From NCBI GenBank assembly GCA_025449845.1, contig JANWIP010000024.1, forward strand, positions 1 through 48,803: 48,803 nt of DNA, given 5' to 3'. How positions within the stretch are numbered: the stretch's first letter is position 1; each line of letters starts with the position of its first letter. Made by a program: the position numbers and the translations under genes. Source of the stretch: Solirubrobacteraceae bacterium. Lineage in GTDB: Bacteria; Actinomycetota; Thermoleophilia; Solirubrobacterales; Solirubrobacteraceae. Below, one piece after another: positions 21,815-38,629 of the stretch. The notes beneath the pieces are model-generated. The model did not search any database. It was given only the letters and a program-made list of their open reading frames with translations, and was not told the origin of the DNA.

Positions 21815-22198
21815 TCAGTCACTCCACCAGTTCGGCAGGATCTCCCCGTCGCCCTTCACGTGCGGCCCGAAGGCTACGAGCTCAAGCCCGTCGGGGCCCG
21901 CCTCAAAGGCGCGGATGGTCTTGGGTGAGACGCGGATGGCGTCGAGGCGCTTGATCTCCACGATCTCGTTATCGAGCTTGATGCGTCCCGAGCCGGCGAG
22001 CACGAGGTAGATCTCCTCGGCCTGATTGTGGCGGTGCCCAAAGCCCTGGCGCTTGCCAGGGTTCAGGCGCTGATGGCTGAGCCCGGTGTCGGTGGCATCG
22101 AGATCTTCGCGGGCAAAGCGCGCTTCGCCGAGCTCGCCAAAGCCGCTCTTGGCGGCCATATCTTCGACATCCTCGATGTTCTTGATGGTGTGTGCCAT
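21815..22198 (-). CDS. Cupin-domain protein
   Basis: 127 residues with cupin motif 1 (HRHNQAEEIYLVLAGSGRIKLD) and a short motif 2 with IRAFEAGPDGLELVAFG. The His-x-His and Glu ligands of motif 1 are present; the motif 2 histidine appears absent, so metal binding may be weak or altered. Small single-domain cupins bind small molecules or act as isomerases. This one is divergent from a P450 across 68 bp containing G-rich direct repeats. Function unknown. Confidence 0.85.
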   Translation of the reverse strand: MAHTIKNIEDVEDMAAKSGFGELGEARFAREDLDATDTGLSHQRLNPGKRQGFGHRHNQAEEIYLVLAGSGRIKLDNEIVEIKRLDAIRVSPKTIRAFEAGPDGLELVAFGPHVKGDGEILPNWWSD

Positions 22199-22217
22199 GG
22201 CATTCGCTCCTCTGTTT

Positions 22218-22242
22218 CGGGGGGTTTGTCGGGGGTTTGGTC
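22218..22242. promoter_or_regulatory. GGGGGTTTG direct repeats between cupin and P450 genes
   Basis: The short divergent gap holds two adjacent GGGGGTTTG units with a 12-base period. A candidate operator or promoter element shared by both genes; no known consensus is recognised. Confidence 0.3.
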
Positions 22243-22266
22243 ACGCGGCCAGTTTTCTGTCAGGCT

Positions 22267-23658
22267 ATGTCGATGAACGCCAGCACACTTTCAAGCACGA
22301 CCACGCTGCCCGCCGGCCCGAGTGAGCCACCCATGGTGCAGACGCTGCGCTGGCTAACGCGGCCGATCTCCTTTCTTGAGTCCTGCCGGCGACGCTATGG
22401 CGATAACTTCAGCGTGAAGTTCCTCAGTTTTCAGAATCCCACGGTGATGCTGTCAGACCCCGAGGCGATCCGCGCGCTGTACTCCGAGCGCAAGCACGGT
22501 CTGCCGCCCGGGCGCAGCGTGGCGCTGATGCCGGTGATGGGCGCGAGCTCGGTGCTGTTGCTGGAGGGCAGCGAGCACCTGGAGCGACGCAAGGTGATGC
22601 TGCCCCCCTTTCACGGCGAGCGGATGCGCTCGTATGAGTCGATCGTGCGCGAAGCAGCCGAACGGGAGATCGAGAGCTGGCCGCAGGGCGAGGTCTTCGC
22701 GCTGCACCCGCGCATGCAGTCGATCACCATGGAGGTGATCCTCAGAGCGGTGTTCGGCGTGAGCGATGCGGAGCGTGGCAAGGGCCTGCGCGAGCTGTTG
22801 CCACAGCTGCTAGGCCAGAGCGCCTCCACGGGCTTGCAGCTGCGAGTACTGCTCTCCAATCGCTTTCAGCGCGGCGATCCGCTGGAGGACCTGCGACGCC
22901 TGACGCGCGACATCGACGAGCTGCTGCTGGCGGAGATCGCGGAGCGTCGTCTGGACCCGAACCTGCAGCAGCGCGAGGACATCCTCTCGCTGCTGATGAG
23001 CGCGCGCATGGAAGACGGCAGCGCGATGAGCGACCGCGATCTGCGTGACCAGCTGGTCACGCTGCTGTTGGCGGGCCACGAGACCACGGCCACCGCTCTG
23101 GCATGGACCTTCGACCTGCTGCTGCGCCACCCCGCGCAGTTAGCGCGCCTGACGGCGGAGGTGCAGGAAGGCGGCGAGGATACCCGCTCGGGCGCGGGCG
23201 AGTACATGCGTGCGGTGATCTCAGAGTCTCTGCGCCTGCGCCCTGTAGTCCCGCTTGCGGGGCGGCGCCTGAACGAGGACCTCGACGTGGGCGACTTGCA
23301 CCTGCCGGCGGGCACCGATGTCACCCCGGTGATGTGGCTAACGCACACGCGTCCCGATCTGTATCCCGAGCCTTACGCCTTTCGTCCCGAGCGCTTCCTC
23401 GACAATCCCCCCACAACCTACGGCTGGATTCCCTACGGCGGCGGCGTACGCCGCTGCCTGGGAGCCTCCTTCGCGGAGTTCGAGATGCGGGTCGTCTTGG
23501 AGACAGTGCTGCGCAGCCGCGTGCTGGAATCCGCCGACTCCCGCGCCGAGCGCGTGGCGCGCCGCAACGTCACCTTCTCCCCTCGCCACGGCACGCGTGT
23601 TCGCGCCGTCACACGCGTGACGCCTAGACGAGCGCCCGCGGAGCCGGTCGCGGCGTAG
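22267..23658 (+). CDS. Cytochrome P450
   Basis: 463 residues from ATG 22267 (ATG 22273 is equally possible; the open frame reaches back to 22192 but overlaps the cupin start). Motifs are complete: I-helix LLLAGHETTATALAW with the oxygen-activating Thr, ESLRLRP for the ExxR pair, a PERF-type FRPERFL, and the heme loop IPYGGGVRRCLGASFAEFE with the axial cysteine. The usual Phe at the start of the heme loop is Tyr. It resembles the CYP110-like bacterial group. No ferredoxin or reductase lies next to it. Substrate unknown. Confidence 0.95.
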   Translation: MSMNASTLSSTTTLPAGPSEPPMVQTLRWLTRPISFLESCRRRYGDNFSVKFLSFQNPTVMLSDPEAIRALYSERKHGLPPGRSVALMPVMGASSVLLLEGSEHLERRKVMLPPFHGERMRSYESIVREAAEREIESWPQGEVFALHPRMQSITMEVILRAVFGVSDAERGKGLRELLPQLLGQSASTGLQLRVLLSNRFQRGDPLEDLRRLTRDIDELLLAEIAERRLDPNLQQREDILSLLMSARMEDGSAMSDRDLRDQLVTLLLAGHETTATALAWTFDLLLRHPAQLARLTAEVQEGGEDTRSGAGEYMRAVISESLRLRPVVPLAGRRLNEDLDVGDLHLPAGTDVTPVMWLTHTRPDLYPEPYAFRPERFLDNPPTTYGWIPYGGGVRRCLGASFAEFEMRVVLETVLRSRVLESADSRAERVARRNVTFSPRHGTRVRAVTRVTPRRAPAEPVAA

Positions 23659-23669
23659 TCGTGCGCGAA

Positions 23670-23686
23670 GCCCCACTCATTGGGGC
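23670..23686 (+). terminator. Hairpin after the P450 gene
   Basis: GCCCCA-CTCAT-TGGGGC, a 6-bp stem with a 5-base loop, lies 12 bases after the P450 stop. There is no U-tract, so termination is plausible but not certain. Confidence 0.45.
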
Positions 23687-23743
23687 CTGAAGGACCATCG
23701 AGCAATTGAGGTTGAAAGGCGCGGATGCGGGTAGCAAGCCGAT

Positions 23744-23983
23744 ATGCCAACTGGAACCTCAATATTCCTGATAGCGGTAGGGGCCATTCTGCGTTACGCG
23801 GTCACCGCGACGGTCTCGGGCGTCTCGCTCCAGACGGTCGGCCTGATCCTGATGATCGTAGGCGTCCTGGGATTGGTGCTGTCCCTCTTCTACATGCTGG
23901 CCTGGACTCCACGACGCGCTCGCGTGGTGGGTGGCCGGCCCGTAGAAGCTGACCCTTACTACGAGGAAGCCCCGCCGCGCTGA
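23744..23983 (+). CDS. Small membrane protein, DUF6458-like
   Basis: 79 residues with two hydrophobic helices (about 7-24 and 29-51) followed by a short polar, acidic tail ending YYEEAPPR. The opening GTSIFLIAVGAILRYAV and the whole layout match the DUF6458 family of small actinobacterial membrane proteins of unknown role. It lies 85 bp after the P450 and is probably transcribed separately. Confidence 0.8.
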   Translation: MPTGTSIFLIAVGAILRYAVTATVSGVSLQTVGLILMIVGVLGLVLSLFYMLAWTPRRARVVGGRPVEADPYYEEAPPR

Positions 23984-24037
23984 AGAACCCAGCCTCGCTT
24001 TGCGTCACAAACTGCTGGCCTTCACGATGTACTGGTT

Positions 24038-24598
24038 GTGGGCGTCGATGATGACCGTGCTGATGAGGCGCTTCTTGTTGCGGGCAGGCGCGACGCGGAG
24101 GCGTTTGGGCTCTTCTACGGGCGGCGCGTGGACGCCGTGCTCGCCTTCTTCCTGCGGCGCACGGGCGACCGCGAGCTCGCTGCCGACCTGACCGCTGAGA
24201 CGTTCGCCGCGGCGCTGTCCGCCCTGCCGCGTTACAGCCCGCGGCGGAGTTCGGCGCTCGCGTGGCTGTTCACGATCGCACACCACAAGATGGCGGACTC
24301 GATCCGCCGCGGCCAGGTCGAGGACCGGGCGCGTAGGCGCCTGGGCCTCGAGCCGCTCGTATTCAGCGACGAGGACATCGAGCGCGTGGAGCAGCGAGCG
24401 GCGGCGGCGGACGGCGGCGCCGCGCTGCTCGAGCTCGAGCAGCTGTCCGCTGAGCAGCGCGGCGCGATCGAAGGACGGGTACTCCAAGAAACCGAATACG
24501 ACGAACTCGCCCGACGCCTGAGGTGCTCGGAGTCGGTGGTCCGCAAGCGCGTGAGCCGTGGGCTCGCTGAGCTCCGCACGAGAATGAAGGAGGCCTGA
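24038..24598 (+). CDS. RNA polymerase sigma-70 family (ECF-type) sigma factor
   Basis: 186 residues from GTG 24038. Region 2 covers about 15-90 (DAEAFGLFYGRRVDAVLAFFLRRTG, LTAETFAAAL, SALAWLFTIAHHKMADSIRRG). Region 4 covers about 125-183 (LEQLSAEQRGAIEGRVLQETEYDELARRL, then a recognition helix with SESVVRKRVSRGL). This is a small alternative sigma factor. The gene that follows after 2 bases encodes a one-pass membrane protein, the usual place for a partner or anti-sigma, although no zinc anti-sigma motif is seen in it. Downstream ATGs (24050, 24053) are less likely starts. Confidence 0.9.
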   Translation: MGVDDDRADEALLVAGRRDAEAFGLFYGRRVDAVLAFFLRRTGDRELAADLTAETFAAALSALPRYSPRRSSALAWLFTIAHHKMADSIRRGQVEDRARRRLGLEPLVFSDEDIERVEQRAAAADGGAALLELEQLSAEQRGAIEGRVLQETEYDELARRLRCSESVVRKRVSRGLAELRTRMKEA

Positions 24599-24600
24599 GG

Positions 24601-26352
24601 ATGGACGCGATGGACAGGTTCGGGCAGGAACTGGTGCGGGCCGGGGGCCGCCGATACGCCGGGCGGCGGGCGCTGCCAGCGCCCTTCGGCACACGCTTCG
24701 CGCGTACATCACCGCGACGTCGCGTATCCGCACATGTGCGTGTTGCACTCGTCGCGCTCGCGCTCGTGCTCGCCACCGCCGCGATCACGCTCGCGGCGAC
24801 TGGAGTGATCCTCACGGGCTCGCCGGTCGGCACGGTGCGTGCTCCGATCGCCACCGCCGGCGAGGGCATCCCGGTGGCGGGCGGCGCACGGCTGCTCTCC
24901 CTACGAGCGGCAGACCCGGCGGGCGGCCTGCCGTGGGGAATGCGGATCATCCACACCACACGCGGCCTCATCTGCGTGCAGATCGGCCGCGTCTATGACG
25001 ACCAGCTCGGACAGCTCGGCGTCGACGGCGCGTTTCACGACGACGGGCGCTTCCACCCCCTGCCCGCAGACGCGCTCCCAGACGTCCTCGCGAGCGCAGC
25101 CGGATGGATGACCGGAAACTGCGCGAGTCCGGGAGATATCTACGCGGGCGACAGCGTGGGGCTTGAGCTCAGTGCGGCCACCAGCCCCCGCCAAGGCGCT
25201 GGGGCGCCCGCCGATCGCCGCGAGATCTCCTTCGGGCTGCTCGGAGTGCACGCGGTGAGCGTCACCTACCGCGAAGGCTCGGAGACACGCACCCAGCCAG
25301 TGCTCCCGGGATTGGGCGCGTATCTGATCGTGCAGCGCTACACCAGCGGCAGGCCGCTGGGAAGCGTCAGCGAGACCGACGGCAGAGACGAACCGGGCAA
25401 CTACAGCTCACCGGCCAGCCCGAACGGAGCGCTGACCGTGATCACCTACAGCTACGCGGGACGGTCGTGTGTCGACCGGGGCAACCTGCGCTTGGCCTCA
25501 TGCGGACTCTCGGAAGTGCCGCCACCACGCCCGGCTGCGCTGCCCATCGTGCGCGAGCCGCTGCACGCACACCTGCACATCCACAACCACGTGATCACGA
25601 GCGCGCAGATCAGCTTCCACGCGCCTTACCCCGTCACGAATGCCGACGAGAACTACTCGGCGACGGCGCCGGTCTGTCGCCGCGGCCTCGCCGGAGGAGG
25701 CTCTGGCGCCAACGTCGCGCGCGGCGCGCTCGTGACCATACCCGTCGGGGGAGTTCTCTCCGAGGCATGCGGCCGGACGGTGAAGTTCACCGTCGAATAC
25801 GTCAGCTTCGCGGGCGGCCTGCCACAACCCACGCCCCTCGGCAGCATCACGATCCACGAGCCGCCCGGAACGCACCCCGTTCCACTACCGAGGCGCGTTG
25901 TCGAACAGGAGAGACGGTCCAACCCGACACGCAGCCTGCATGCGACGATTCATCTCACACTCCTGCCCCAGCCCCGCGCAGCGTGCAAGGCCGCGTTCCT
26001 GCTCTACCCGTGCTACAAGGGGGAGGTCGGGTTCACGGCTCCCTACGCGGCCACCTCTGCGGCCGCCTACTACTCCATCGACGGGTTCGCCACATGCAAG
26101 GCCGGTGGCCGCCCCGAAACCAGCTGGGATCTACGACGCAAGGTCAGGGCGCACGAAACACTCAGAACCATTTCGCTGGGGATCTTCGTGCTCACGCCCT
26201 CCTGCGCATCGAGCGAGGGGTTCGAAGTCATTTACCTGAACCAGCAGGGCCCCTCGGCCGGCGCACCCCACGAATCAGTCATCCTCGGCACCGTGACCCT
26301 GAGCAAGGCAACGCTACCCAACGGGCAGAACCCGAAGCTGCCCGCGGGATGA
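24601..26352 (+). CDS. Single-pass membrane protein with large extracytoplasmic part, partner of the sigma factor
   Basis: 583 residues. An N-terminal cytoplasmic segment of about 44 residues (basic, with FGTRFARTSPRRR) precedes one transmembrane helix at about 45-68. Roughly 510 residues outside the membrane follow, with scattered Cys (for example CASPGD, CVDRGN, CRRGL, CKAAFLLYPC) that could form disulfides. The end contains two similar beta-rich segments starting LHAHLHIHNHV and LHATIHLTLL. No catalytic motif is recognised. The gene lies 2 bases behind a sigma factor gene, so I infer co-expression and perhaps signal-dependent control of that sigma factor. Confidence 0.75.
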   Translation: MDAMDRFGQELVRAGGRRYAGRRALPAPFGTRFARTSPRRRVSAHVRVALVALALVLATAAITLAATGVILTGSPVGTVRAPIATAGEGIPVAGGARLLSLRAADPAGGLPWGMRIIHTTRGLICVQIGRVYDDQLGQLGVDGAFHDDGRFHPLPADALPDVLASAAGWMTGNCASPGDIYAGDSVGLELSAATSPRQGAGAPADRREISFGLLGVHAVSVTYREGSETRTQPVLPGLGAYLIVQRYTSGRPLGSVSETDGRDEPGNYSSPASPNGALTVITYSYAGRSCVDRGNLRLASCGLSEVPPPRPAALPIVREPLHAHLHIHNHVITSAQISFHAPYPVTNADENYSATAPVCRRGLAGGGSGANVARGALVTIPVGGVLSEACGRTVKFTVEYVSFAGGLPQPTPLGSITIHEPPGTHPVPLPRRVVEQERRSNPTRSLHATIHLTLLPQPRAACKAAFLLYPCYKGEVGFTAPYAATSAAAYYSIDGFATCKAGGRPETSWDLRRKVRAHETLRTISLGIFVLTPSCASSEGFEVIYLNQQGPSAGAPHESVILGTVTLSKATLPNGQNPKLPAG

Positions 26353-26417
26353 CGGCGGCGACGCCATGGTGCCTCTCGATCGGCAAATACGTAGTCGCGG
26401 GGGCGGCCTAAGCTGAC

Positions 26418-27260
26418 TTAAAGATCGAGGGTGATGCCCTGCGCCGCGACGATGACTCTGGGAGAAGGACCGCGGAAGCGCAGGGCCAGCTCGTCCAGGG
26501 CGTCGTCGGTGCGGGTGTGGCGGTGGTGGATGAGCACGACCGATCTGGCGTGGGCGCGCCGGGAGAGCTCGACGGCGTAGTCGGCCAGAGCGTGCCCGTA
26601 GACCGCTTCGGCGGATAGCTCCGCGGGAAAGAGCTGGGCGTCGTGCACGAGCACGTCCACATCCTTGGCCAGTTCGAGTGCCGCCGGGTGGTATTCGCCG
26701 AAACCATCCTCGCCCGGGCCCAGCTCGGTGGGGCAGTGGTCGGGAAGGTAGGCGAGCGCGGAGTGTCCGTCGCTCACGCGGTAGCCAAACGTGCGACCCC
26801 CCTTGTGCGGTATCTCGCGCGCGAGCACGGTGAAGCCCTGGATCTGCTGCCCTCCAGGGGCGACTGTGCCAAACGACCACTCGCCCCGCAGTTCGGTCGG
26901 CCTGATCGGGAAATAGGGCGGAGACATTATCCCGCAGAGCACTGCTGCTGCCCCATCGCCGCTCTGCTGCTCGGGGAGCATCACGGTGACGTTGGCGTCG
27001 GGGTGGTCGGCCGCGGAGAAGAAGGGCAGGCCGAGGACGTGGTCCCAATGCAGGTGGCTGAGCAGGATGGTTCCCGCGAACGGCGCGCCGTCCAGCAAGC
27101 CCGTTACGGACTTCAGCCCCGTGCCCGCATCGAGCACCAGAGTCGGCGCGGGGGCGCCGTCGTGAGCCAGCGCCAGGCACAGCGTGTCGCCTCCGTAGCG
27201 CACGAAATCGATGCCGGTGGCTGGGGTCGATCCCCGCACACCGCATAGGTGGACCTTCAA
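26418..27260 (-). CDS. Metallo-beta-lactamase-fold hydrolase
   Basis: 280 residues. The metal site HLHWDH (H69, H71, D73, H74) lies after a VLDAGTGLKSV segment, with later ligands in LVHDAQLF and VLIHHRHTRTDD. The opening MKVHLCGVRGSTPATG is typical of MBL proteins in the RNase Z/cyclic-phosphodiesterase-like group rather than of antibiotic lactamases. It starts 15 bases downstream of the CHASE2 cyclase stop on the same strand, so the two are likely one operon. MBL-fold class II phosphodiesterases degrade cAMP/cGMP, so a cyclase-phosphodiesterase pair is an attractive but unproven reading. Confidence 0.88.
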   Translation of the reverse strand: MKVHLCGVRGSTPATGIDFVRYGGDTLCLALAHDGAPAPTLVLDAGTGLKSVTGLLDGAPFAGTILLSHLHWDHVLGLPFFSAADHPDANVTVMLPEQQSGDGAAAVLCGIMSPPYFPIRPTELRGEWSFGTVAPGGQQIQGFTVLAREIPHKGGRTFGYRVSDGHSALAYLPDHCPTELGPGEDGFGEYHPAALELAKDVDVLVHDAQLFPAELSAEAVYGHALADYAVELSRRAHARSVVLIHHRHTRTDDALDELALRFRGPSPRVIVAAQGITLDL

Positions 27261-27275
27261 CCAGCTCAGCTCCAG

Positions 27276-29090
27276 TCAGGGTATGTCCGGGTCATTATGG
27301 CGAGCGCTCGGCTGCTGCGCGACGGACGCGACCGTCCAGACCGGCACCGCGGCGAGGCGTCCACGGATCTCAAGCTCGCCCACGAGGACGAGATTGTCGG
27401 GCGGACTCTTCATGCGCTCGCGGGTGGTGTCGGAGATGAACAGCATGTGCCCGCTGCCTTTGGTCATTCCCTCCAGGCGCGAGGCGGTGTTGGTGGTGTC
27501 GCCGAGCGCGGTGTACTCAACGCGCTGCTCGGAGCCGATGTTGCCGGCCATCACCAGGCCGCTGTTGATCCCAACGCCCATCATGAACTTGTGCTCATGG
27601 CCCTGCTCGGCGAGCCAGGAGTTGAAGCGCTCCAGTCGCGGGCCGATCATCTCGGTGGCCGCCGCCAGCGCCCGCTCGGCGTGGTCGGGCTGCTCAAGCG
27701 GCGCGCCAAAGACCGCCATGATGCCATCGCCCATGTAGGCGATCAGCGTGCCTCCGGCGCCCAGGATCGCCTCGGTCATCTCGTTCAGATAGCAGTTGAC
27801 GACCTCGATCACCCGCTGGGCCGGCAGCTTCTCGGAGAAGCTCGTGAACCCGCGCAGGTCGGAGAACAGCACGGTGCAGTCGCGTTCCACGCTGCCGAGT
27901 CGGAGGTTGTCATCGGCGCTTGCCACCACCTGGTCGACCACATCGGCGGGCACGAAGCGAGAGAACAGATCGTGCACGCGTTCGCGCTCGATCGTCTCGC
28001 CGACGTACAGCACGGCGAGCGTCCCCAGCGTGCCCACGGCTAGCGCGAGCAGCGGGTAGACGAAGGCCACGATCCAGCCATTCTGGAAGGCCAGCTGGGT
28101 GAGCAGCGTGAAGGCGATCGCCAGCCCCAGGCCGACCAGCAGCGCGCGCCATTGGTGTAAGCGCAGGCTGCCCAAAGGAACGGCGAGGCCGAGCAAGGCG
28201 ATCAGCAGGATGTTGACCCAGCCGGGCACGTCAGTAAGTGGCACGCCGCGCAGCAGCGTGGCCGTCGCGTTCGCCCAGATTTCCGGCCCCGACATCACGC
28301 CACTGCCGCTGGTCGCCGTGGCATGTACGTCGTGGAGCACCGGCGCGGTGGCTCCCACGATCACGACCTTGCCTTGGAAGAGACTGGGCGAGAACTCTCC
28401 TCGCAGCACCTGGGAGAAGGGAACCGCCTTGACGGTTTCGGGCGGCCCGGCGAAGTCGATCGGCAGCGTCTCGCTCTCGAAGCGCGAGGCATCGATCGGA
28501 CGGCCCGTTGCCGTTTCGCTCGCGGCCACGGCGAGGCTATGAAGGCTGTTGTAGGCGTAGGAAAAGCGGCGCACCACGCCGTCGGAGTCCTCGGTCAGCC
28601 GCGCATCGGCGGCGCGTGCTCCCAGTTCGTGCAGCAGGCTGCCCCCGCCGAGTACATCGGTGCCACCGCGCGGGTCCACTTCAAGAGCGGCCAGCACGGT
28701 TTTGCCGCGCGCCCTGCCGATCGCTTCAATCAGCGCGTTGTCATCGCGCACATCGGTTTCGTGGGTGAATTCGAGATCCATCACGATCGCCTTCGCGCCA
28801 GCGCGACGCAGATGATCGATGACCTGCGCGTCATAGCGGCGCGGGAAGGGGAACTCCGAGTGAAGCCCGGCGTTCGTGAGCTCCTGGAAGGTCGCGGGGT
28901 CGATCGCCACGAGCACCACGTTGGTGGGCGGGCGCTGTGTGCCGCGAATCGAAAAGCGCGCGTCGAGCGTCTGCAGTTCGGTGCGCCTCAGCAGATGTGT
29001 CGCGTAGGCGAGCACGCCCACGCTGCCGGCCAGAAGGGCGACCGCCAGCAGCGCCACTGCCTTGCGTCGTTGTCTGCGCGTGCCACCCAT
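27276..29090 (-). CDS. CHASE2-domain class III nucleotide (adenylate/guanylate) cyclase
   Basis: 604 residues. A first membrane helix (about 10-30) precedes an extracytoplasmic CHASE2 sensor (about 35-285, with LDARFSIRG, VVLVAIDPATFQEL and KVVIVGATAPVLHDVHATA). Three helices (about 290-365) and a short linker follow, then a class III cyclase domain (about 400-555). Metal-binding D411 (FSDLRGF) and D455 (MGDGIMAVFG) are present, as are the transition-state residues N534 and R538 (GDTTNTASRLE). The Lys that normally selects adenine, four residues before D455, is Ala451 here, and the second specificity position is T527. It should make cNMP in response to an outside signal; whether cAMP or cGMP is open. 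Confidence 0.92.
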   Translation of the reverse strand: MGGTRRQRRKAVALLAVALLAGSVGVLAYATHLLRRTELQTLDARFSIRGTQRPPTNVVLVAIDPATFQELTNAGLHSEFPFPRRYDAQVIDHLRRAGAKAIVMDLEFTHETDVRDDNALIEAIGRARGKTVLAALEVDPRGGTDVLGGGSLLHELGARAADARLTEDSDGVVRRFSYAYNSLHSLAVAASETATGRPIDASRFESETLPIDFAGPPETVKAVPFSQVLRGEFSPSLFQGKVVIVGATAPVLHDVHATATSGSGVMSGPEIWANATATLLRGVPLTDVPGWVNILLIALLGLAVPLGSLRLHQWRALLVGLGLAIAFTLLTQLAFQNGWIVAFVYPLLALAVGTLGTLAVLYVGETIERERVHDLFSRFVPADVVDQVVASADDNLRLGSVERDCTVLFSDLRGFTSFSEKLPAQRVIEVVNCYLNEMTEAILGAGGTLIAYMGDGIMAVFGAPLEQPDHAERALAAATEMIGPRLERFNSWLAEQGHEHKFMMGVGINSGLVMAGNIGSEQRVEYTALGDTTNTASRLEGMTKGSGHMLFISDTTRERMKSPPDNLVLVGELEIRGRLAAVPVWTVASVAQQPSARHNDPDIP

Positions 29091-29132
29091 GCCCCGCCTC
29101 GATGTTTCAGCCTTCGCCGATTTAGCAGGGGT

Positions 29133-29161
29133 CGATGCTAACTGCGAGGGCCGATGCTAAC
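29133..29161. promoter_or_regulatory. CGATGCTAAC direct repeats between cyclase and FecR-like genes
   Basis: CGATGCTAAC occurs at 29133-29142 and 29152-29161, 19 bases apart (about two helical turns), in the 96-bp divergent gap. A candidate regulator site controlling one or both directions. Confidence 0.35.
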
Positions 29162-29186
29162 CGACCGCTGTGAGAGGGTTCGCGGC

Positions 29187-30800
29187 ATGAACCGCCCCCG
29201 CCTTGGCTGCAAAGTGCTCCTATCGGCTGGCACGGCACTCGGCATCTGGCTGGCGGCGGCGGCGCCGGTAGGGGCGGTCACGATCGACACCCAGACCCGC
29301 ACAGTGACGGCGGCCCGCCTGAGTATGGCGTTCGGCGCGCTCGAACCCGACGTGGTGAGGTCTCTGCAATGGACCGACAGCGCCGGCACCCAGGGGGAAA
29401 CCCTCGTCGACAACACCGAAGAAGCTATCTGCCCGAATGCGCCTAAGGGCTATCCCGCGAACTTCTGGGGTGAGTCCTATGGGGACGGCTCGGCCGGCAC
29501 CAATCCGGAGCTCGTGTTCGGCGGCTCGAACGGAAGCTGGAGCAGTCCCGCCCCAGACCAGGTGCAGAGCAGCACCGAATACCCCGTGGGTTGCTCGAAG
29601 TACAAAGAAGCGGTGCCTGTCGGGACGACCTATACCTACTACGACACGCTGCCGCAGGCGAACGAGATCATGCTCAAGCGCACCTGGAGCTTTGCCCTCT
29701 CCCAGCGGCTGCCCGCGGCGGCGACGGGCTTTCGCGCGTACGTGCCTCAGTTGCCCCTCACGCACTATGGACAGGTTCTCTATCCCAATGCCGGCAGTCT
29801 TCAGACAGAAACCATCTCCCCCACGAACTGCGGCAAGTCCGCCTGCTTGAAGGAACTCTCCGGCGCTTGGTTCGCTATCAACGACGGGACGGCGGGCGAC
29901 TCCCAGGATGGCTCGGGGATGATCGTGCTGCGCGACGCGAGCGACATCCCTGGTGCCAAGCTGGCGATTCAAGGCACCTTCGTCGGCGCCGCCTTCCCCA
30001 ACCCGATCGCCAACTTGAGCTCGATCGACCTGCCGGTCCCGAATGGAGGACTGGGTGCGCCGATCACCGAGATCGAGTACCTCTGCTTCTACGACGCCAC
30101 GAGCTGGCCCCAGGCACAGCGCGAAGCGCTTCAGCTGCCGCCCGGCTGCGGGCCGCTGCCGAGCCCGCCCCAGGAAGGTGGCGGCGCCACCACCGTGCCG
30201 CCGCCCGGCAAGACTCCTCCTCCAGGGCCTGCCCCTGGACCGTCCCCGCCCGTGCTCGGCCATAGCTTCAACGTCGCGCGCGCCGGCGGCGTCGTGCTTG
30301 TCGAGCCGCCTGGCACCCACACCTTCACCCCGCTGACCCAGGCCCTGGAGCTGCCGTTGGGATCGATCATCGATGCGACGCACGGCAGCGTGAGCATCAC
30401 GACGGCCACGCCTGGAGGTGGCACTCAGACGGGCCAGTTCTTCGCGGGCAGGTTCGTGCTGACCCAAGGCCGCGACGGTGCTGTGGTGGCGACCCTGACG
30501 GGCGGCGATTTCAGTGTGTGTCCGACGGCCCGCGAGCGCAGGCATCTCGCGCATGCCAGCTCGGGGCACGCCTCGGGCAAGCACGTGGTGCGCAAGCTGT
30601 GGGCCAACGCGCATGGGAAGTTCTCGACCAAGGGCAACTACGCCGCGGGCGCCGTGCAAGGTACGGAGTGGCTGACAGAGGACCTGTGCGAGGGCACTCT
30701 CATCCGCGTGACGCGCGATCGCGTGGCGGTCACCAACCTCGTCAACCACCGCCACCTGACGGTCAAGGCGGGGCACAGATATCTCGCCAAGGCGCCATGA
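29187..30800 (+). CDS. Secreted protein with C-terminal FecR-like domain
   Basis: 537 residues from ATG 29187 (MNRPRLGCKVLLSAGTALG). An upstream in-frame ATG at 29154 would put a charged stretch before the signal peptide. A Sec signal peptide covers about 1-30 (cut near PVGA). Residues about 31-330 are an unknown beta-rich domain with several Cys. A Pro/Gly linker of about 40 residues (PPPGKTPPPGPAPGPSPP) follows. Residues about 375-535 resemble a FecR domain (LPLGSIIDATHGSVSITTA, AVQGTEWLTEDLCEGTLIRVTRDRVAVTN, TVKAGHRYLA). FecR-like proteins often sit beside CHASE2 cyclases, and this one is divergent from such a cyclase, so I infer a role in presenting an external signal. Confidence 0.78.
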   Translation: MNRPRLGCKVLLSAGTALGIWLAAAAPVGAVTIDTQTRTVTAARLSMAFGALEPDVVRSLQWTDSAGTQGETLVDNTEEAICPNAPKGYPANFWGESYGDGSAGTNPELVFGGSNGSWSSPAPDQVQSSTEYPVGCSKYKEAVPVGTTYTYYDTLPQANEIMLKRTWSFALSQRLPAAATGFRAYVPQLPLTHYGQVLYPNAGSLQTETISPTNCGKSACLKELSGAWFAINDGTAGDSQDGSGMIVLRDASDIPGAKLAIQGTFVGAAFPNPIANLSSIDLPVPNGGLGAPITEIEYLCFYDATSWPQAQREALQLPPGCGPLPSPPQEGGGATTVPPPGKTPPPGPAPGPSPPVLGHSFNVARAGGVVLVEPPGTHTFTPLTQALELPLGSIIDATHGSVSITTATPGGGTQTGQFFAGRFVLTQGRDGAVVATLTGGDFSVCPTARERRHLAHASSGHASGKHVVRKLWANAHGKFSTKGNYAAGAVQGTEWLTEDLCEGTLIRVTRDRVAVTNLVNHRHLTVKAGHRYLAKAP

Positions 30801-30823
30801 GAGCCCAAGGCGCCATGAGAGCC
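30788..30823 (+). repeat. 18-bp tandem duplication across the FecR-like gene stop
   Basis: Two adjacent copies of CAAGGCGCCATGAGAGCC (30788-30805 and 30806-30823). The first contains the stop codon TGA at 30798-30800. The second fills most of the 40-bp gap before the cyclic-nucleotide-binding gene. A small local duplication, probably neutral. Confidence 0.9.
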
Positions 30824-30840
30824 TTGCGTAAGGTGCGGCG

Positions 30841-31326
30841 ATGAGCGCCGACTTCGCGGCGAACTTCTTCAACTACGACTCCGTCGAGGTGCACGAGCGC
30901 TCTGAGCAGCTCGCGCTGCTCGCGGGCCGTCCGCGCTCAGACTGGGCGAAGGTCCTGGCCCACACCGAGACGCGCCGTTTCTCGCGCGATGAGACGATCA
31001 TCTCGGCGGGGGAGACCGACCGGGCGCTGTATCTGCTCACCGAAGGCACCCTCGGCGTGCGCCTGCAAGCGGACACCGAGAAGACCTTCAAGGCGATCGA
31101 TGCGCCGTCGGTCGTCGGCGAGGTGGCCTTCCTCGACGGCGGTCCTCGCTCGGCCACGCTGTTCGCGATCACGGACGGTGAGCTGCTGCGCCTGCGCATG
31201 GAGAGCTTCGAAACGCTCTCGGCGCGTGAGCCCGAGCTCGGGCGGGCGATCCTGTTCGATCTAGCGCGCATCGTCACCCAGCGCCTACGACTCGCCAGCG
31301 ATGTAATTGCACGGACGGGAGGCTGA
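30841..31326 (+). CDS. Stand-alone cyclic-nucleotide-binding domain protein
   Basis: 161 residues. One CRP/PKA-type beta-barrel occupies about 20-135, followed by a short C-terminal helix. The phosphate-binding cassette VVGEVAFLDGGPRSATLFA keeps E94 and R103-S104, which contact the ribose and phosphate of the nucleotide, so binding is likely. There is no helix-turn-helix, unlike CRP/FNR regulators; it should act on a protein instead of DNA. The redox gene starts 1 base after its stop, and a cyclase lies 1.8 kb upstream on the other strand. I infer that it controls the redox protein by cNMP binding. Confidence 0.9.
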   Translation: MSADFAANFFNYDSVEVHERSEQLALLAGRPRSDWAKVLAHTETRRFSRDETIISAGETDRALYLLTEGTLGVRLQADTEKTFKAIDAPSVVGEVAFLDGGPRSATLFAITDGELLRLRMESFETLSAREPELGRAILFDLARIVTQRLRLASDVIARTGG

Positions 31327-31327
31327 G

Positions 31328-33958
31328 GTGGCGAGCGCAACCCCAACCAATCCCTTCCCCAACTACACGCAGATGCGCCGGCGCCTGCCGCTGTGGGCCT
31401 GGCAGGCAGCTCGTGTGCTGAGTGTGTCGCTGGCGATTGGCCTCTGCATCCTGCTGCTGGCCAAACCTGCAACCGGACTGGAACTGTGGTGGAAGTTGGC
31501 GATCCCGCTGCTGCCGCTGCTGTGGCTCACGGCGCCGGGACTGTGGCGCAACATCTGTCCGCTGGCGGCCACCAATCAGACGCCGCGCCTGCTGCGTTTC
31601 ACGCGCGGGCTCACCATCCCCTCGTGGTATCGAGAGTACGCCCCGGTGGTGGGGATGGCGGCGTTCATCCTGCTGGTGGCCTCGCGTAAGCCGCTGCTGA
31701 ACACGAGCGGTGTGGCGACCGCCGTGCTGATCGGCGCCTCGCTGGCGGGGGCGCTGATCGGTGGCGTCGTGTTCAAGGGTAAGAGCGGCTGGTGCAGCTC
31801 GATCTGCCCGCTGCTGCCGGTGCAGCGCATCTACGGCCAGACGCCTTTCGCGACCGTTCCTAACTCACACTGCCAGCCGTGCGTGGGGTGCACCAAGAAC
31901 TGTTACGACTTCAACCCGCGCGTGGCCTACCTCGCGGACCTCTACGAGGACGACCGTCACTACACCGGCTATCGCAAGTTTTTCGTTGGCTGTTTTCCCG
32001 GATTGATTTTGTGTTACTTCACGCTGCCTGCGCACATCTCCGCCGGCTCTGACTACGCGCGCTTCGCGCTCTACATCGCGGCGAGCACCGGTAGCTTCTT
32101 TCTCGCCGAGACGCTGCTGAAGGTGACGGTTAATAAGATCACAGCCGTCTATGGCGCGGTGGCGATCAGTCTCTTCTATTGGTACAGCTCGATGGTGCTC
32201 GCCGGCACTCTCACGGGCAGCACCGGCACCGCCTGGTTTGTTTGGGGTCTGCGCGCGGTGGTGTGGACGCTCGCCGCGGTGTGGCTCGTGCGTACCTGGC
32301 GCAAGGAGGCCGTCTTTGTCGAGCAGGCCACCTCGCCGCCGCCGGTGCGCCTGGGCGAGGAGGCGCTCGATGCAGCCCGTGCTCAGCAGGCGGGCAATCC
32401 CGAGATCACCTTCGAGCCGAGCGGGCTGCGCCTGGTGGCCAAGCCCGGGGCGACCTTGCTCGATCTTGCCGAAAGCGGCGAGCAGTCGGTCGAGGCCGGC
32501 TGTCGCATGGGGGTCTGTGGCGCGGACCCGGTGTGCGTTGTCGCAGGAATGGAGCACCTCTCGGCGATCTCCGGCGATGAGCAGGCGACGCTTGAGCGCC
32601 TCGGGTATGCGGAGAACACGCGCATGGCGTGCTGCGCGCGTGTCAACGGACCGGTCACGATCTCGCTCACTCCCGAACGGGCCGGCGCCGTGGCGCCTAA
32701 GCGCGTGGAGGGATTTGAGTTTGACCCTGCTGTGGCGCGCGTGGTGATTGTGGGTAACGGCATCGCCGGTGTAACTGCCGCCGATCACGTCCGCCGCCGT
32801 CACCCGGACTGTCAGATCGATGTCGTCGCCAATGAGCCTTACCCGCTTTATAACCGCATGGGGATAGCGCGGCTGGTGTACGGCAGCTCGGCGATGGTTG
32901 GGCTCCAGCTGCTGCCCGACGCATGGTATGAGGAGAATCAGGTCACCTGCTGGCTGAACACATTCGCCACGGGTCTCGATCGTGAGCGTGGCGAGCTGAA
33001 GTTGGGCACCGGCGAGACCCTCTCCTACGACCGCCTGATCCTGGCGACCGGCAGTGACTCGTTCGTACCGCCGATCGAGGGCTACGGCGTGCCCGGCACC
33101 TTCGTCCTGCGCCGCGCCTCCGATGCCTTTGGTATTCGCACCTTTGCCCAGGAGCACCGCGCCGAGCATGCGGTGATCGCGGGCGGAGGGCTGCTCGGCC
33201 TGGAGGCCGCCTTTGCGCTGCACAAAATCGGCCTGCACGTCACGGTGCTCGAGCGCGGACCGACACTACTCTCGCGCCAGCTCGATGAGCGGGCGGCGGA
33301 GTTGCTGCGCGACTACCTCGAAGGGCTAGGGCTGCATATCTCGCTGGCTGTCGAGACCGAGTCGCTGAGCGGCGACGAGCGCCTGCGTGAGGTCCGGCTG
33401 CGCGATGGGCGCACGCTTCCTGCCGACGTCTTCCTCGTCGCGGCTGGGATCACACCGCTGATCGAGCTTGCCCGCGAGGCAGGGCTGGAGGTCGCCAAAG
33501 GCGTGGTCGTGGACGACGCTCTGCGCTCCAGCGACCCGCGGGTCTTCGCGGTCGGCGACGTCGCCGAGCACCGCGGGCGAACCTACGGCCTATGGCCAGC
33601 GGCGGTCGAGCAAGGCGAGATCGCCGCTGAGAATGCGCTCGGTGGCGAGCGCCTCTACGAGGGAACTGTGCCCGTGACGATGCTGAAGGTCGTCGGCGTG
33701 GACCTGCTCTCGATTGGGCGCTTTCAGGCCCAGGACGGGGACACCGCGATCGCGCTTGAGGACTCCGAAGAGCACAGCTACCGCAAGCTCGTCATCGCCG
33801 AGGACCGGATTGTTGGTGCGATTCTGATCGCACGCCAGCAGGACGCACCCCATGTCACCGCTGCCGTGAAGGATGGCCGCGATGTGTCGGGCCTGCTAGG
33901 GGCGCTTGAGCGCGGGGAGTGGGAGGGGCTGGCGGCGGAGGAGCCGGTCGCTGTGTAG
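31328..33958 (+). CDS. Membrane-bound redox fusion: 4Fe-4S membrane domain, 2Fe-2S-like domain, FAD/NAD oxidoreductase
   Basis: 876 residues from GTG 31328, one base after the previous stop. Residues about 25-335 are a multi-helix membrane part with NICPLAA (C77), WCSSIC (C156, C160) and a 4Fe-4S-like set C182-x2-C185-x2-C188-x3-C192, somewhat like NapH-type electron carriers. Residues about 355-455 are a ferredoxin-like domain with C392-x4-C397-x2-D400 and C403, C435, C436; an Asp stands where the third Cys is usual. Residues about 468-860 are a NirB/ferredoxin-reductase-like flavoprotein (FAD GNGIAG at 476-481, NAD loop GGGLLGLEAA, FAVGDVAEHRG). It likely moves electrons from NAD(P)H to a membrane or extracytoplasmic acceptor. 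Partner unknown. Confidence 0.85.
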   Translation: MASATPTNPFPNYTQMRRRLPLWAWQAARVLSVSLAIGLCILLLAKPATGLELWWKLAIPLLPLLWLTAPGLWRNICPLAATNQTPRLLRFTRGLTIPSWYREYAPVVGMAAFILLVASRKPLLNTSGVATAVLIGASLAGALIGGVVFKGKSGWCSSICPLLPVQRIYGQTPFATVPNSHCQPCVGCTKNCYDFNPRVAYLADLYEDDRHYTGYRKFFVGCFPGLILCYFTLPAHISAGSDYARFALYIAASTGSFFLAETLLKVTVNKITAVYGAVAISLFYWYSSMVLAGTLTGSTGTAWFVWGLRAVVWTLAAVWLVRTWRKEAVFVEQATSPPPVRLGEEALDAARAQQAGNPEITFEPSGLRLVAKPGATLLDLAESGEQSVEAGCRMGVCGADPVCVVAGMEHLSAISGDEQATLERLGYAENTRMACCARVNGPVTISLTPERAGAVAPKRVEGFEFDPAVARVVIVGNGIAGVTAADHVRRRHPDCQIDVVANEPYPLYNRMGIARLVYGSSAMVGLQLLPDAWYEENQVTCWLNTFATGLDRERGELKLGTGETLSYDRLILATGSDSFVPPIEGYGVPGTFVLRRASDAFGIRTFAQEHRAEHAVIAGGGLLGLEAAFALHKIGLHVTVLERGPTLLSRQLDERAAELLRDYLEGLGLHISLAVETESLSGDERLREVRLRDGRTLPADVFLVAAGITPLIELAREAGLEVAKGVVVDDALRSSDPRVFAVGDVAEHRGRTYGLWPAAVEQGEIAAENALGGERLYEGTVPVTMLKVVGVDLLSIGRFQAQDGDTAIALEDSEEHSYRKLVIAEDRIVGAILIARQQDAPHVTAAVKDGRDVSGLLGALERGEWEGLAAEEPVAV

Positions 33959-33974
33959 GGCGCTCGATGAGTGG

Positions 33975-35180
33975 TCAAGGTCCCAGCGTGCCGATGGGTA
34001 TGACGGCCACCCCGTCCTTGCGGCGGTAGCCGTAGCCGGTCGCGACAATGACCCCAAGTAGCGCTGGGTTGCCACATCTCGCCGTGTCGATTCGTGCGGC
34101 GAACCGCAGCAGGCTTTCGGCGGCATCATCGATCTGCCCCTGACCCAGCTTCACCTCAAATGCCATCCAGCGACCGTCGCCCGTCTCGACGATCGCGTCG
34201 ACCTCGAGACCGCCGCTGTCGCGGTACTGCGATACCCGCGCGTCGAGCGCCTGCGCATAGATGCGCAGGTCGCGCACGACGAGCGACTCGAACAGGAAGC
34301 CGAGCAGGTTGAGATCGCGCAGCAGTCGATCGGGTGTCGCTCGCAGCGCCGCGACTGCCAGCGATGGGTCCACGAAGTGCCGCTTGGGTGCCGTGCGAAG
34401 CCGGTGCTTGGAGCGCAGGTGCGGCGCCCAAGCGGGCTGGTCCTCGATGATCATGAGCCGCTCCAGTGCGGCGAGGTACTCACGTACCGTGTCGTCCTTC
34501 AACGGGCCTTCGGCGCCGCCGGTATCCCTGGCAAGCGTTGTCGCCGCAGCGTGGGTGGCGATGTTGCGCGCGAGACTCGCCAGCAGTCGCTCTACGCGGC
34601 CCGGATCGCGTTTGGTCGAGTCCAGACGCGCGACATCGACGCGGGCGATCTCCTGCAGATAGTCGCGCATGGCAAGCAGAACATCCGGGGCGCTGTGACC
34701 GCGGAATCCTGGCCATCCACCCAGCGCGATCTCTTCGGCGAGATCCGCGACGCTCAGCCCCGGATCGGCGCTTTGACTCATTTCACCACCAAGCAGTTCA
34801 CTCAGCGAGATACTTCCGCTGCTGCGGCCCGCCTCGAAGAGGCTCATCGGACGCATCCGCAGGCGAGTGATACGCCCGGCGCCCGTATGTCGTGTGATGT
34901 CGTCAGGAGGTACCGCAGAACCGGTCAGGATGAACTGGCCGGGGTCAAGGCGGTCGTCGATCGCCCTGCGCACGTGGTTCCAGATTGCCGGCTCGATCTG
35001 CCACTCGTCGAGGAGCCTAGGCGTGGGACCGTCTAGCACGAGCGCTGGATCAACCGCAATCGCCTGTCGTGCGTTGGTATCGACATCGAGCAGAACCTCG
35101 CTGGCCGCAATTTGCCTGGCAGTGACCGTCTTTCCACAGGCCTTTGGTCCCTCGATGACGACGGCCCCAACGGCGCTCAA
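33975..35180 (-). CDS. AAA-type ATPase with DUF4143 C-terminal domain
   Basis: 401 residues from TTG 35180. Visible: Walker A EGPKACGKTVTARQ, Walker B-like RLLDEWQIEP, sensor ILTGSAVPP, and in the DUF4143 half a nuclease-like end SGGLEVDAIVETGDGRWMAFEVKLGQG, with the D-x-n-E-x-K pattern of PD-(D/E)XK folds. The role of this widespread, often mobile family is unclear. The true start is uncertain: the in-frame codons upstream read YQPRVVDHELAARL, which is how the family usually begins, but no ATG/GTG/TTG precedes them before an in-frame TAG at about 35290. The 23-bp repeats cover exactly this region. Confidence 0.82.
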   Translation of the reverse strand: MSAVGAVVIEGPKACGKTVTARQIAASEVLLDVDTNARQAIAVDPALVLDGPTPRLLDEWQIEPAIWNHVRRAIDDRLDPGQFILTGSAVPPDDITRHTGAGRITRLRMRPMSLFEAGRSSGSISLSELLGGEMSQSADPGLSVADLAEEIALGGWPGFRGHSAPDVLLAMRDYLQEIARVDVARLDSTKRDPGRVERLLASLARNIATHAAATTLARDTGGAEGPLKDDTVREYLAALERLMIIEDQPAWAPHLRSKHRLRTAPKRHFVDPSLAVAALRATPDRLLRDLNLLGFLFESLVVRDLRIYAQALDARVSQYRDSGGLEVDAIVETGDGRWMAFEVKLGQGQIDDAAESLLRFAARIDTARCGNPALLGVIVATGYGYRRKDGVAVIPIGTLGP

Positions 35181-35562: not shown

Positions 35563-35606
35563 AGAGCCGACGCCCGGAATCGAACCGGGGACCCCTTCAT
35601 TACGAG
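35563..35606 (-). repeat. Left attachment site: 44-bp copy of the tRNA-Thr 3' half
   Basis: The 44 bases are identical to 38555-38598 and cover the tRNA-Thr gene from the anticodon to the 3' end plus two bases. Sequence diverges at once on both sides. This is the duplicated attachment core left by site-specific integration into the tRNA gene. It is not a functional tRNA. Confidence 0.93.
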
Positions 35607-37183: not shown

Positions 37184-38485
37184 TCAGCCCGACACAGGAC
37201 CTATGCTAGTTCCGCAGGAGTTGGCGCCCTCACACACCGATGCGATCACTGGAGCCGAGGAGTGATGTCGTAGCATTATCCGAGTAACTTGCACGGGCCT
37301 ACGCAGCCACCGCTTGCTCGCCATGCTGAACGCCTCGGCCACGAGCCGCGCGTCCTCCTCGCGCGGCTCGTAGTGCAGATACCGCATGGTGGTCTGGATG
37401 TCGGCGTGGCCCATCCACTCCTGCACGCGGCGGATGTCGGCCTTGGCGATCATGCGAGTGCCGAAGGTGTGGCGCAGGTCGTGGAACCGCAATGAGCGCA
37501 GATCCGCACGCTTCAACGCGGCCTTGTAACGGCGGCGAAGCGCCGAGCCGTCGAGGAACCCGCCGACTTCGCCGGGGAATACGAGATCGTCCTCGGCAGT
37601 GAACAGCTCGCGGTCGGCCAGCCGCGCGAGGGCTCGGGCCACGTCGGGGGCGAGTGGGACCGAGCGCACCTTGCCGGATTTCGGTGCGGTCAGCGCGCCG
37701 GCCGCGTAGCTTGCGCGCACCCGCACCACCGAGCCGGCGAAGTCCACGTCGCGCCAGTGCAGTGCGATCAGCTCGCCCAGTCGCAGGCCGGTGAAGGCGG
37801 CGGTCAGGAAGATCGCGGCGTCCTGCTCGCTCTCGGCCGCGCGCACCAGCGCCCAGACCTCCTCGGGGCTGAAGACCTCGATGTCGCTGCTGCGCGTAAG
37901 CGGTGGCTTCTCCACGTCAGCCGCCGGGTTGAGCGGCAGCCCGTGGACCTTGTGCGCGCGCTGGAAGATGCCGTGGAGGAGCACGAGCGCCTTGCGGCGG
38001 CTGCTGGGCTTGCCCGACATCCCGGCCAGCCACGCTTCGATGCCCTCGCTCATGACGTCCTCCAGGCGCATCCCGCCCAGGGCGGGCACGATCTGCGCAT
38101 CAACGATCCAGCGGTAACCCTGCACGGTGGAGGGCTTGCGTGCCCGGTCGTGCTCGATGTAGCGCAGGTACTCCTCGGCGGCGCCGGCCACCGTCGCGCC
38201 CGTGCGGACCATGCCGGGCAACTCGCCGCGCCGCGCCTGCTCGAGCACCTCGCGCAGCCATTCCTCGGCCGTGCGCTTCGTGTAGCAGCCGGCGGGCGGA
38301 CGACCACGCTCGGACCACGCCGGCCCGATCCGCTTCTGCACCTGGCGACCGTCGGGTAGACGGTACTTGGCATACCACGCCGGCCCGCGCGTGCGCTCGA
38401 CGCGGAAGACGTGCCCACTGATGGGGCGCTGCGTTGTCGAGCTCGTACCTGCCATGTCCCGAAAGCTACCACGATCTCGGGACAT
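37184..38485 (-). CDS. Tyrosine recombinase (phage-type integrase)
   Basis: 433 residues (423 if started at ATG 38455). An N-terminal AP2-like arm-binding segment (HVFRVERTRGPAWYAKYRLPDGRQ), a core-binding SAM-like domain (about 105-190) and a catalytic domain (about 205-385) are in order. The catalytic residues are present: Arg in TGLRLGELIAL, HxxR in RFHDLRHTFGTRM, His in MGHADIQTTMRY and Tyr in YLHY. It would integrate and excise the element at the 44-bp tRNA-Thr core. A C-terminal extension of about 50 residues after the tyrosine region (ending IGPVSG) looks frayed and may result from the neighbouring deletion. Confidence 0.93.
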   Translation of the reverse strand: MSRDRGSFRDMAGTSSTTQRPISGHVFRVERTRGPAWYAKYRLPDGRQVQKRIGPAWSERGRPPAGCYTKRTAEEWLREVLEQARRGELPGMVRTGATVAGAAEEYLRYIEHDRARKPSTVQGYRWIVDAQIVPALGGMRLEDVMSEGIEAWLAGMSGKPSSRRKALVLLHGIFQRAHKVHGLPLNPAADVEKPPLTRSSDIEVFSPEEVWALVRAAESEQDAAIFLTAAFTGLRLGELIALHWRDVDFAGSVVRVRASYAAGALTAPKSGKVRSVPLAPDVARALARLADRELFTAEDDLVFPGEVGGFLDGSALRRRYKAALKRADLRSLRFHDLRHTFGTRMIAKADIRRVQEWMGHADIQTTMRYLHYEPREEDARLVAEAFSMASKRWLRRPVQVTRIMLRHHSSAPVIASVCEGANSCGTSIGPVSG

Positions 38486-38552: not shown

Positions 38553-38556
38553 ATAG

Positions 38557-38629
38557 AGCCGACGCCCGGAATCGAACCGGGGACCCCTTCATTACGAGTG
38601 AAGTGCTCTACCAGCTGAGCTACGTCGGC
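38557..38629 (-). tRNA. tRNA-Thr, anticodon CGT
   Basis: A complete 73-base cloverleaf: acceptor GCCGACG/CGTCGGC with discriminator T, D-arm GCTC..GAGC, anticodon arm CTTCA-CTCGTAA-TGAAG with anticodon CGT (reads ACG), T-arm CCCGG-TTCGATT-CCGGG. CCA is not encoded. Its 3' half is the integration site of the adjacent element; the gene stays intact. Confidence 0.96.

Follow-up and report, generated by a model that had tools for sequence, protein, structure and literature searches.

Whether a cyclic nucleotide can control electron flow through a bacterial membrane directly is the question raised by a gene cluster in 48,803 nucleotides of a Solirubrobacteraceae genome (assembly GCA_025449845.1, contig JANWIP010000024.1; this whole stretch is called the window). 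Five neighbouring genes encode a metallo-beta-lactamase (MBL)-fold hydrolase, a CHASE2 sensor with a class III nucleotide cyclase, a secreted protein, a stand-alone cyclic nucleotide (cNMP)-binding protein that we presume to be a reader of the signal, and a membrane iron-sulphur flavoprotein termed here the redox protein. The positions, order, spacing and key residues given for these genes in an original prediction, made from the sequence alone, were borne out. In the locus, a CHASE2-cyclase/secreted-protein module is combined with a reader/redox pair whose partners elsewhere are other cyclases or kinases, and it is likely to be a real, modular signal-to-redox relay.

The genes for the reader (30841-31326, plus strand, 161 aa) and the redox protein (31328-33958, plus strand, 876 aa) are separated by 1 bp. 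The redox gene starts with a GTG at 31328, one base past the TGA of the reader gene (31324-31326) and with a GGGAGG immediately upstream; an automated list of open reading frames (ORFs) gave a TTG start at 31307, within the reader gene. A tRNA-Arg call at 31647-31746 was taken as false because it lies inside the redox gene. The pairing was counted in 11 full-length redox neighbourhoods (the window, L009-L012 and L100-L105). A contig scan had given at least 80 loci; 75 of these (L014-L088), which match no part of the membrane domain, were dropped and L009-L013 were kept. A free-standing N-terminal domain (L013), two partial matches (L098 and L106) and two short loci at contig ends (L096 and L099) were left out of the 11. 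The redox gene is directly adjoined by a cNMP-binding gene in 8 of the 11, namely in the window, in a Chloroflexi locus (L009), in a Streptomyces locus (L010) and in five loci from one genus within the window's family (L100-L104). In the remaining three (Nocardia L011 and L012, and L105), the redox protein carries a fused FHA domain. The pairing is no accident: rare adjacency of the two genes in related genomes would have counted against the original prediction, and this test came out in its favour. Among the five loci of one genus, the L102 and L103 proteins are near-identical, and L100 (10469-16089) has a single cNMP-binding gene between two redox copies.

The enzymes that could write the signal vary among these neighbourhoods. 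A class III cyclase gene is near the redox gene (within ~6 kb) in only 3 of the 11: a CHASE2 type in the window, an AAA-TPR type in L009, where it lies 25 bp upstream of the reader, and a response-regulator type in L010. A Ser/Thr kinase gene is near in eight, detected by Pfam in L103, L104, L105, L011 and L012 and by similarity in L100-L102, for L101 and L102 with the C-terminal part alone, the gene being cut by the contig end. Three of these kinase loci have the FHA fusion and five (L100-L104) have a cNMP-type reader. The match between writer and reader is clean for cyclase with cNMP and for kinase with FHA, and it is broken by the five kinase-cNMP loci. The excess of kinases over cyclases, eight against three, would fit an alternative in which most lineages drive the redox enzyme by Ser/Thr phosphorylation, the link to a cyclase in the window being a lineage-specific rewiring that is little conserved. 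We judge this improbable; the three cyclase-linked loci come from groups as distant as that of the window, Chloroflexi and Streptomyces, which argues against it.

The redox protein has 1785 relatives at E 1e-20 among 7998 scored, and FHA domains were found in 7 of the 120 listed. In the four relatives read, the domain is N-terminal (P0023, P0054) or C-terminal (P0067, P0072), and its presence at either end suggests that it was gained repeatedly. Co-location among relatives was estimated with a proxy, in which longest contigs of equal size are taken as one contig, applied to the best 120 matches of each search. By this proxy, 17 of the 34 closest redox relatives, and 19 of the 120 overall, share a contig size with a listed cNMP relative. 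The FHA-bearing P0023 also does so; cNMP and FHA readers may therefore occur together in some relatives. CHASE2 relatives share the sizes 331,367, 335,180 and 587,282 with redox relatives and the sizes 7,324, 129,935, 335,180, 501,479 and 587,282 with cNMP relatives. Equal sizes of 3,353, 3,594, 7,170, 17,971 and 2,607 are doubtful because identities or sources disagree or the contigs are too short, and the last four are maybe due to chance.

The reader has the residues expected of a cNMP-binding protein. It matches PF00027 with 61.9 bits against a cut-off of 27.5 bits; this is its sole domain, and no helix-turn-helix was detected by Pfam. The phosphate-binding Glu and Arg of PF00027 are present as E94 and R103, from which cNMP binding is predicted. 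E94, R103 and S104 are invariant across the 21 sequences of one alignment (A2, window included), and in a second set of 11 readers (including the Chloroflexi, Streptomyces and kinase-linked relatives) E94 and R103 are invariant and S104 is not. Pfam and alignment agree with the earlier description of a stand-alone cNMP-binding protein that lacks a DNA-binding domain and has E94 and R103-S104 intact.

The other part of the locus is a module that is widespread in the family to which the window belongs. The gene for the cyclase (27276-29090, minus strand; PF05226 and PF00211, Guanylate_cyc) and that for the secreted 548-aa protein (29154-30800, plus strand; signal peptide visible in the sequence) are divergent with a 63-bp gap between them, and the reader gene follows the latter after 40 bp. 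Only two imperfect inverted repeats were seen in the divergent gap when a CRP-like site was looked for. Among 146 family genomes, CHASE2 is present in 73, and at least 74 have the domain that forms the C-terminal part of the secreted protein; for at least 68 of the 101 CHASE2 matches (in at least 51 of the 73 genomes) this C-terminal domain lies no more than 6 kb away on one contig. Seven loci from six other genomes of the same genus (L168, L169, L170, L171, L173, L174 and L177) comprise five divergent pairs and two pairs on one strand. The redox gene was not found in these seven CHASE2 loci, nor in any of the 20 listed same-genus genomes that lack a match, which suggests that the reader/redox pair was added to an older CHASE2/secreted-protein module. 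Among the eight family genomes with the redox gene, only that of the window has it at a CHASE2 locus, as judged by coordinates.

CHASE2 loci are enriched in readers of other kinds. The idea was prompted by four loci (L168, L169, L172 and L176), which also seeded a local cNMP profile, and 93 CHASE2 loci (window excluded; 1.08 Mb) were compared with 40 controls, each a 14-kb stretch from one of 11 genomes. With this profile, a cNMP-binding gene is found nearby in 31 of the 93 CHASE2 loci and in none of the 40 controls (Fisher p = 3e-6, a value that overstates independence since CHASE2 loci are related). The controls are from better assembled genomes; the case stretches are shorter on average, which biases the comparison against finding enrichment. 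When the four prompting loci are removed, 27 of 89 loci retain a reader. The readers are on the strand of the cyclase in 25 of the 31 loci and within 3 kb in 29, and the local link from cyclase to reader that had been predicted is supported by this comparison. By Pfam, 17 of the 31 loci have CRP-type regulators, six have major facilitator superfamily (MFS) proteins with a cNMP domain (L269 being below the MFS cut-off), three have patatin with cNMP and two have HD with cNMP; in the remaining three the reader is bare or otherwise unannotated, and some loci hold two readers. Like the window's reader, these effectors are readers encoded beside CHASE2 cyclases; unlike them, the window's reader is a separate protein and its output is a redox enzyme.

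Several of these loci have composite genes. An MFS transporter, a cNMP-binding domain and patatin form one chain near CHASE2 cyclases in L252 (10514-13999) and L248 (11606-13999), a cNMP domain is fused to patatin in L169 (9229-11154), and it is fused to HD_5 in L176 (6773-7975) and L214 (5236-6456). In L169 and L176 the fusion gene separates the gene for the CHASE2 cyclase from that for the secreted partner, all on one strand. Fusions of cNMP domains to patatin or MFS proteins occur in mycobacteria; our literature search found no paper on them.

The large share of CRP-type regulators among the CHASE2-linked readers (17 of 31) is in keeping with another explanation, in which a global CRP-type regulator is the main target of the cyclic nucleotide and the window's reader responds to the cell-wide pool, not to the local cyclase. 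The genome itself holds five PF00211 and three PF00027 matches, one PF00027 ORF being CRP-like by eye; with four other cyclase matches and two other cNMP-binding matches besides those of the window, the wiring therefore need not be private. Against a global pool, the pair comes immediately after the secreted partner of the module, and among CHASE2 relatives on long-enough contigs the closest four mostly share a contig size with the pair (same proxy, best 120 matches). We regard an effect through the cell-wide pool as unlikely.

The redox protein combines a recognizable reductase with a membrane domain. By sequence, its C-terminal half (Pyr_redox_2 and Rubredoxin_C) is a BphA4/TodA-type reductase of NADH and flavin adenine dinucleotide (FAD), and the predicted fold of this half matches PDB 4emi with a TM-score of 0.90 (target-normalised) at 28% identity. 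It is preceded by a Fer2 domain with three invariant Cys (C392, C397 and C435), where an invariant Asp400 takes the place of the usual third Cys. The same Cys-to-Asp exchange probably occurs in E. coli SdhB. Eight long helices are predicted in residues 1-340 (counted by eye on the prediction), and C77, C156, C160, C182, C185, C188 and C192 of this half are invariant in 44 sequences. The protein shares the fold and sequence of its C-terminal half with BphA4/TodA NADH:ferredoxin reductases and with the reductase half of NirB; unlike these, it is fused to Fer2 and a membrane iron-sulphur domain and has no nitrite-reductase half. The name NirB, which some sources give to relatives, was rejected, as the match is confined to the reductase half (318.5 against 578.35 bits, profile positions 1-390 of 794). 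The membrane helices with Cys motifs and a weak Fer4_5 match recall NapH/NosR-type membrane ferredoxins, from which the membrane domain differs in being below every cut-off; a fold search of this domain gave no useful PDB match. A free-standing version of the membrane domain, matching NapH weakly, is present in an Anaerolineaceae genome (L013, 9983-11074). By eye, one redox relative (P0068) has a second Fer2-like stretch and two others (P0071 and P0100) have ~220 additional hydrophobic residues at the N-terminus.

The cyclase appears equipped for catalysis. D411 and D455, which we take to be the metal-binding Asp residues, and N534 and R538, presumably the transition-state Asn and Arg of class III cyclases, are present in all 120 listed homologues; the metal residues named in the original prediction are thus intact. 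The MBL-fold hydrolase gene (26418-27260, minus strand; PF12706, Lactamase_B_2) lies 15 bp behind the cyclase gene on the same strand. Residues 68-74 of the hydrolase, SHLHWDH, fit [T/S]HXHXDH, which the available part of PMC9293780 gives as the motif of atypical class-II phosphodiesterases and which is not exclusive; the hydrolase is on this ground a candidate cyclic-nucleotide phosphodiesterase. With the enzymes described in that part of the source (Rv1339, YhfI and C. glutamicum CpdA) it shares both the PF12706 fold and the motif; unlike them it fails NCBIfam NF041851, reaching 32 of 400 bits, far under the cut-off, and RNase Z models score slightly higher. Pfam domain calls covered ten proteins of 21815-35180, and the domains of the hydrolase, the cyclase, the reader and the C-terminal part of the redox protein are all above cut-off.

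Combined, these results point to a relay from the CHASE2 cyclase through a cyclic nucleotide and the cNMP-binding reader to a switched electron flow through the membrane flavin/iron-sulphur enzyme, to which we give roughly an even chance. This reading is put forward because the pairing with a reader or FHA domain recurs, cyclases of CHASE2 and other types adjoin the pair, CHASE2 loci are enriched in readers and the key residues are intact. The CHASE2 cyclase would turn an outside cue into a cyclic nucleotide, which the small cNMP-binding protein would sense; the reader may then act as a regulatory subunit that opens or closes the redox path on cNMP binding. From the domain layout, electrons would pass from NADH through FAD and the [2Fe-2S] centre to the membrane iron-sulphur centres, and finally to a quinone or an extracytoplasmic acceptor. 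The secreted protein may take part in sensing and the MBL hydrolase may end the signal. In evolutionary terms, the CHASE2/secreted-protein module would have been there first, and the window's lineage would have acquired the reader and enzyme genes behind it.

Several findings weigh against this relay, in addition to the other cyclases and cNMP-binding matches of the genome. Firstly, the parts are not always together: 62 of the 93 CHASE2 loci have no reader, and the redox gene is rare. Its N-terminal domain was detected in 8 of 146 family genomes, 9 of 232 order genomes, 7 of 399 genomes drawn from the class and 2 of 396 drawn from the phylum, counts that include the window's own genome every time. 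The MBL gene has 28 listed matches in 25 of the 146 family genomes, and of about 26 places only five, that of the window included, also hold CHASE2 within 7 kb on the contig. The five genes do not form one conserved system, given so few contigs with both MBL and CHASE2 and a cyclase in so few of the redox neighbourhoods. Beside one CHASE2 locus (G110, contig C51, 48071-48438), two partial MBL matches resemble a decaying copy of the hydrolase. Secondly, some assignments are weak or non-canonical. No Pfam or NCBIfam model matches the secreted protein up to E 10, so that the label FecR-like was not confirmed. The 4Fe-4S domain of the redox protein is a sub-threshold Fer4_5 match (17.2 against 22 bits); of the predicted 4Fe-4S/2Fe-2S/FAD membrane redox protein, Fer2 and the FAD reductase are over cut-off and the 4Fe-4S part is not. 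At the base-selecting place the cyclase has Ala451, where aligned solved cyclases have Lys or Glu and the 120 listed homologues have Ala (66) or Ser (54), and it therefore cannot be predicted whether the product is cyclic AMP (cAMP) or cyclic GMP (cGMP).

Thirdly, in L100-L104 the pair lies behind a kinase gene, the retrieved sequence contains no cyclase, and the barrel of the reader is shortened, with Glu and Arg retained. These loci, together with the same-genus CHASE2 loci devoid of the pair, are what would be expected if the small protein were a structural or assembly subunit that retains its cNMP fold for contacts with other proteins and is not acted on by any cyclic nucleotide, an insertion having made the cyclase its neighbour by chance. 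Even in L100-L104, however, the phosphate-binding Glu and Arg do not vary, and three unrelated kinds of class III cyclase adjoin the pair; both argue against a purely structural role, which we consider rather unlikely, if somewhat less so than phosphorylation as the main input or an effect through the cell-wide pool.

If the relay from cyclase to redox enzyme is pursued beyond the window, a broader proposal can be made, which we offer tentatively, with less confidence than the relay itself. The redox enzyme family may be an output socket for interchangeable inputs, cNMP through a separate reader and Ser/Thr phosphorylation through a fused FHA domain. The window's enzyme would be plugged into a CHASE2/secreted-protein module that elsewhere drives transporters, phospholipases, HD enzymes and transcription factors, and second messengers would gate electron flow directly, without transcription. 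Bacteria may thus wire one redox enzyme to different alarm signals. If true, cAMP or cGMP would directly control membrane electron flow driven by NADH, an output of this messenger in bacteria that is new as far as the literature searched goes. That one enzyme occurs either with a cyclase and a cNMP reader or with a kinase and an FHA reader amounts to a natural experiment by which the idea can be tested, and inspecting the neighbours of CHASE2 cyclases provides a rule for locating local, non-transcriptional cNMP targets.

Part of this arrangement has been described before. A cluster of genes for a CHASE2 adenylate cyclase, a phosphodiesterase, a FecR-domain protein and a TPR protein is reported from Campylobacterota in the part of PMC9239204 that was available. 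Common to that cluster, as given there, and the window are a CHASE2-class III cyclase beside a secreted partner and a candidate phosphodiesterase; the window differs in that its secreted protein has no FecR match, no TPR protein was detected by Pfam among the ten proteins of 21815-35180, and it has a cNMP reader and a redox enzyme in addition. Searches of the open-licence literature listed nothing about redox enzymes linked to cNMP or FHA. PMC5498481, in which CHASE2 came up as part of a construct name only, was set aside. The statement that no described system has the full set of genes accordingly stands for the redox output and not for the CHASE2/phosphodiesterase/FecR clustering; as far as the searches go, and with the Campylobacterota account taken from its available part, the redox output is the new part.

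The surroundings of the locus were also considered. Misbinning of the contig was not supported: the GC content and tetranucleotide pattern of the window fall inside the range spanned by 12 further genome stretches, with mean tetranucleotide correlations of 0.70, 0.76 and 0.68 for the window thirds and 0.65-0.77 for own-genome stretches. A stretch from another genus (L103) also reaches 0.68, and the test is therefore only moderate. Plasmid carriage was rejected, the window having no match in a plasmid collection. At 24038-26352 lies an ECF-type sigma factor gene, followed after 3 bases by that of a 583-aa protein without Pfam match that has a membrane segment by eye and is possibly the anti-sigma partner of the sigma factor. 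Just downstream of the redox gene, a 44-bp direct repeat (35563-35606 and 38555-38598) corresponds to the 3' end of a tRNA-Thr (38556-38629). The two copies flank ~3 kb that include an ORF integrase-like by eye (37184-38485) and mark a small integrated element.

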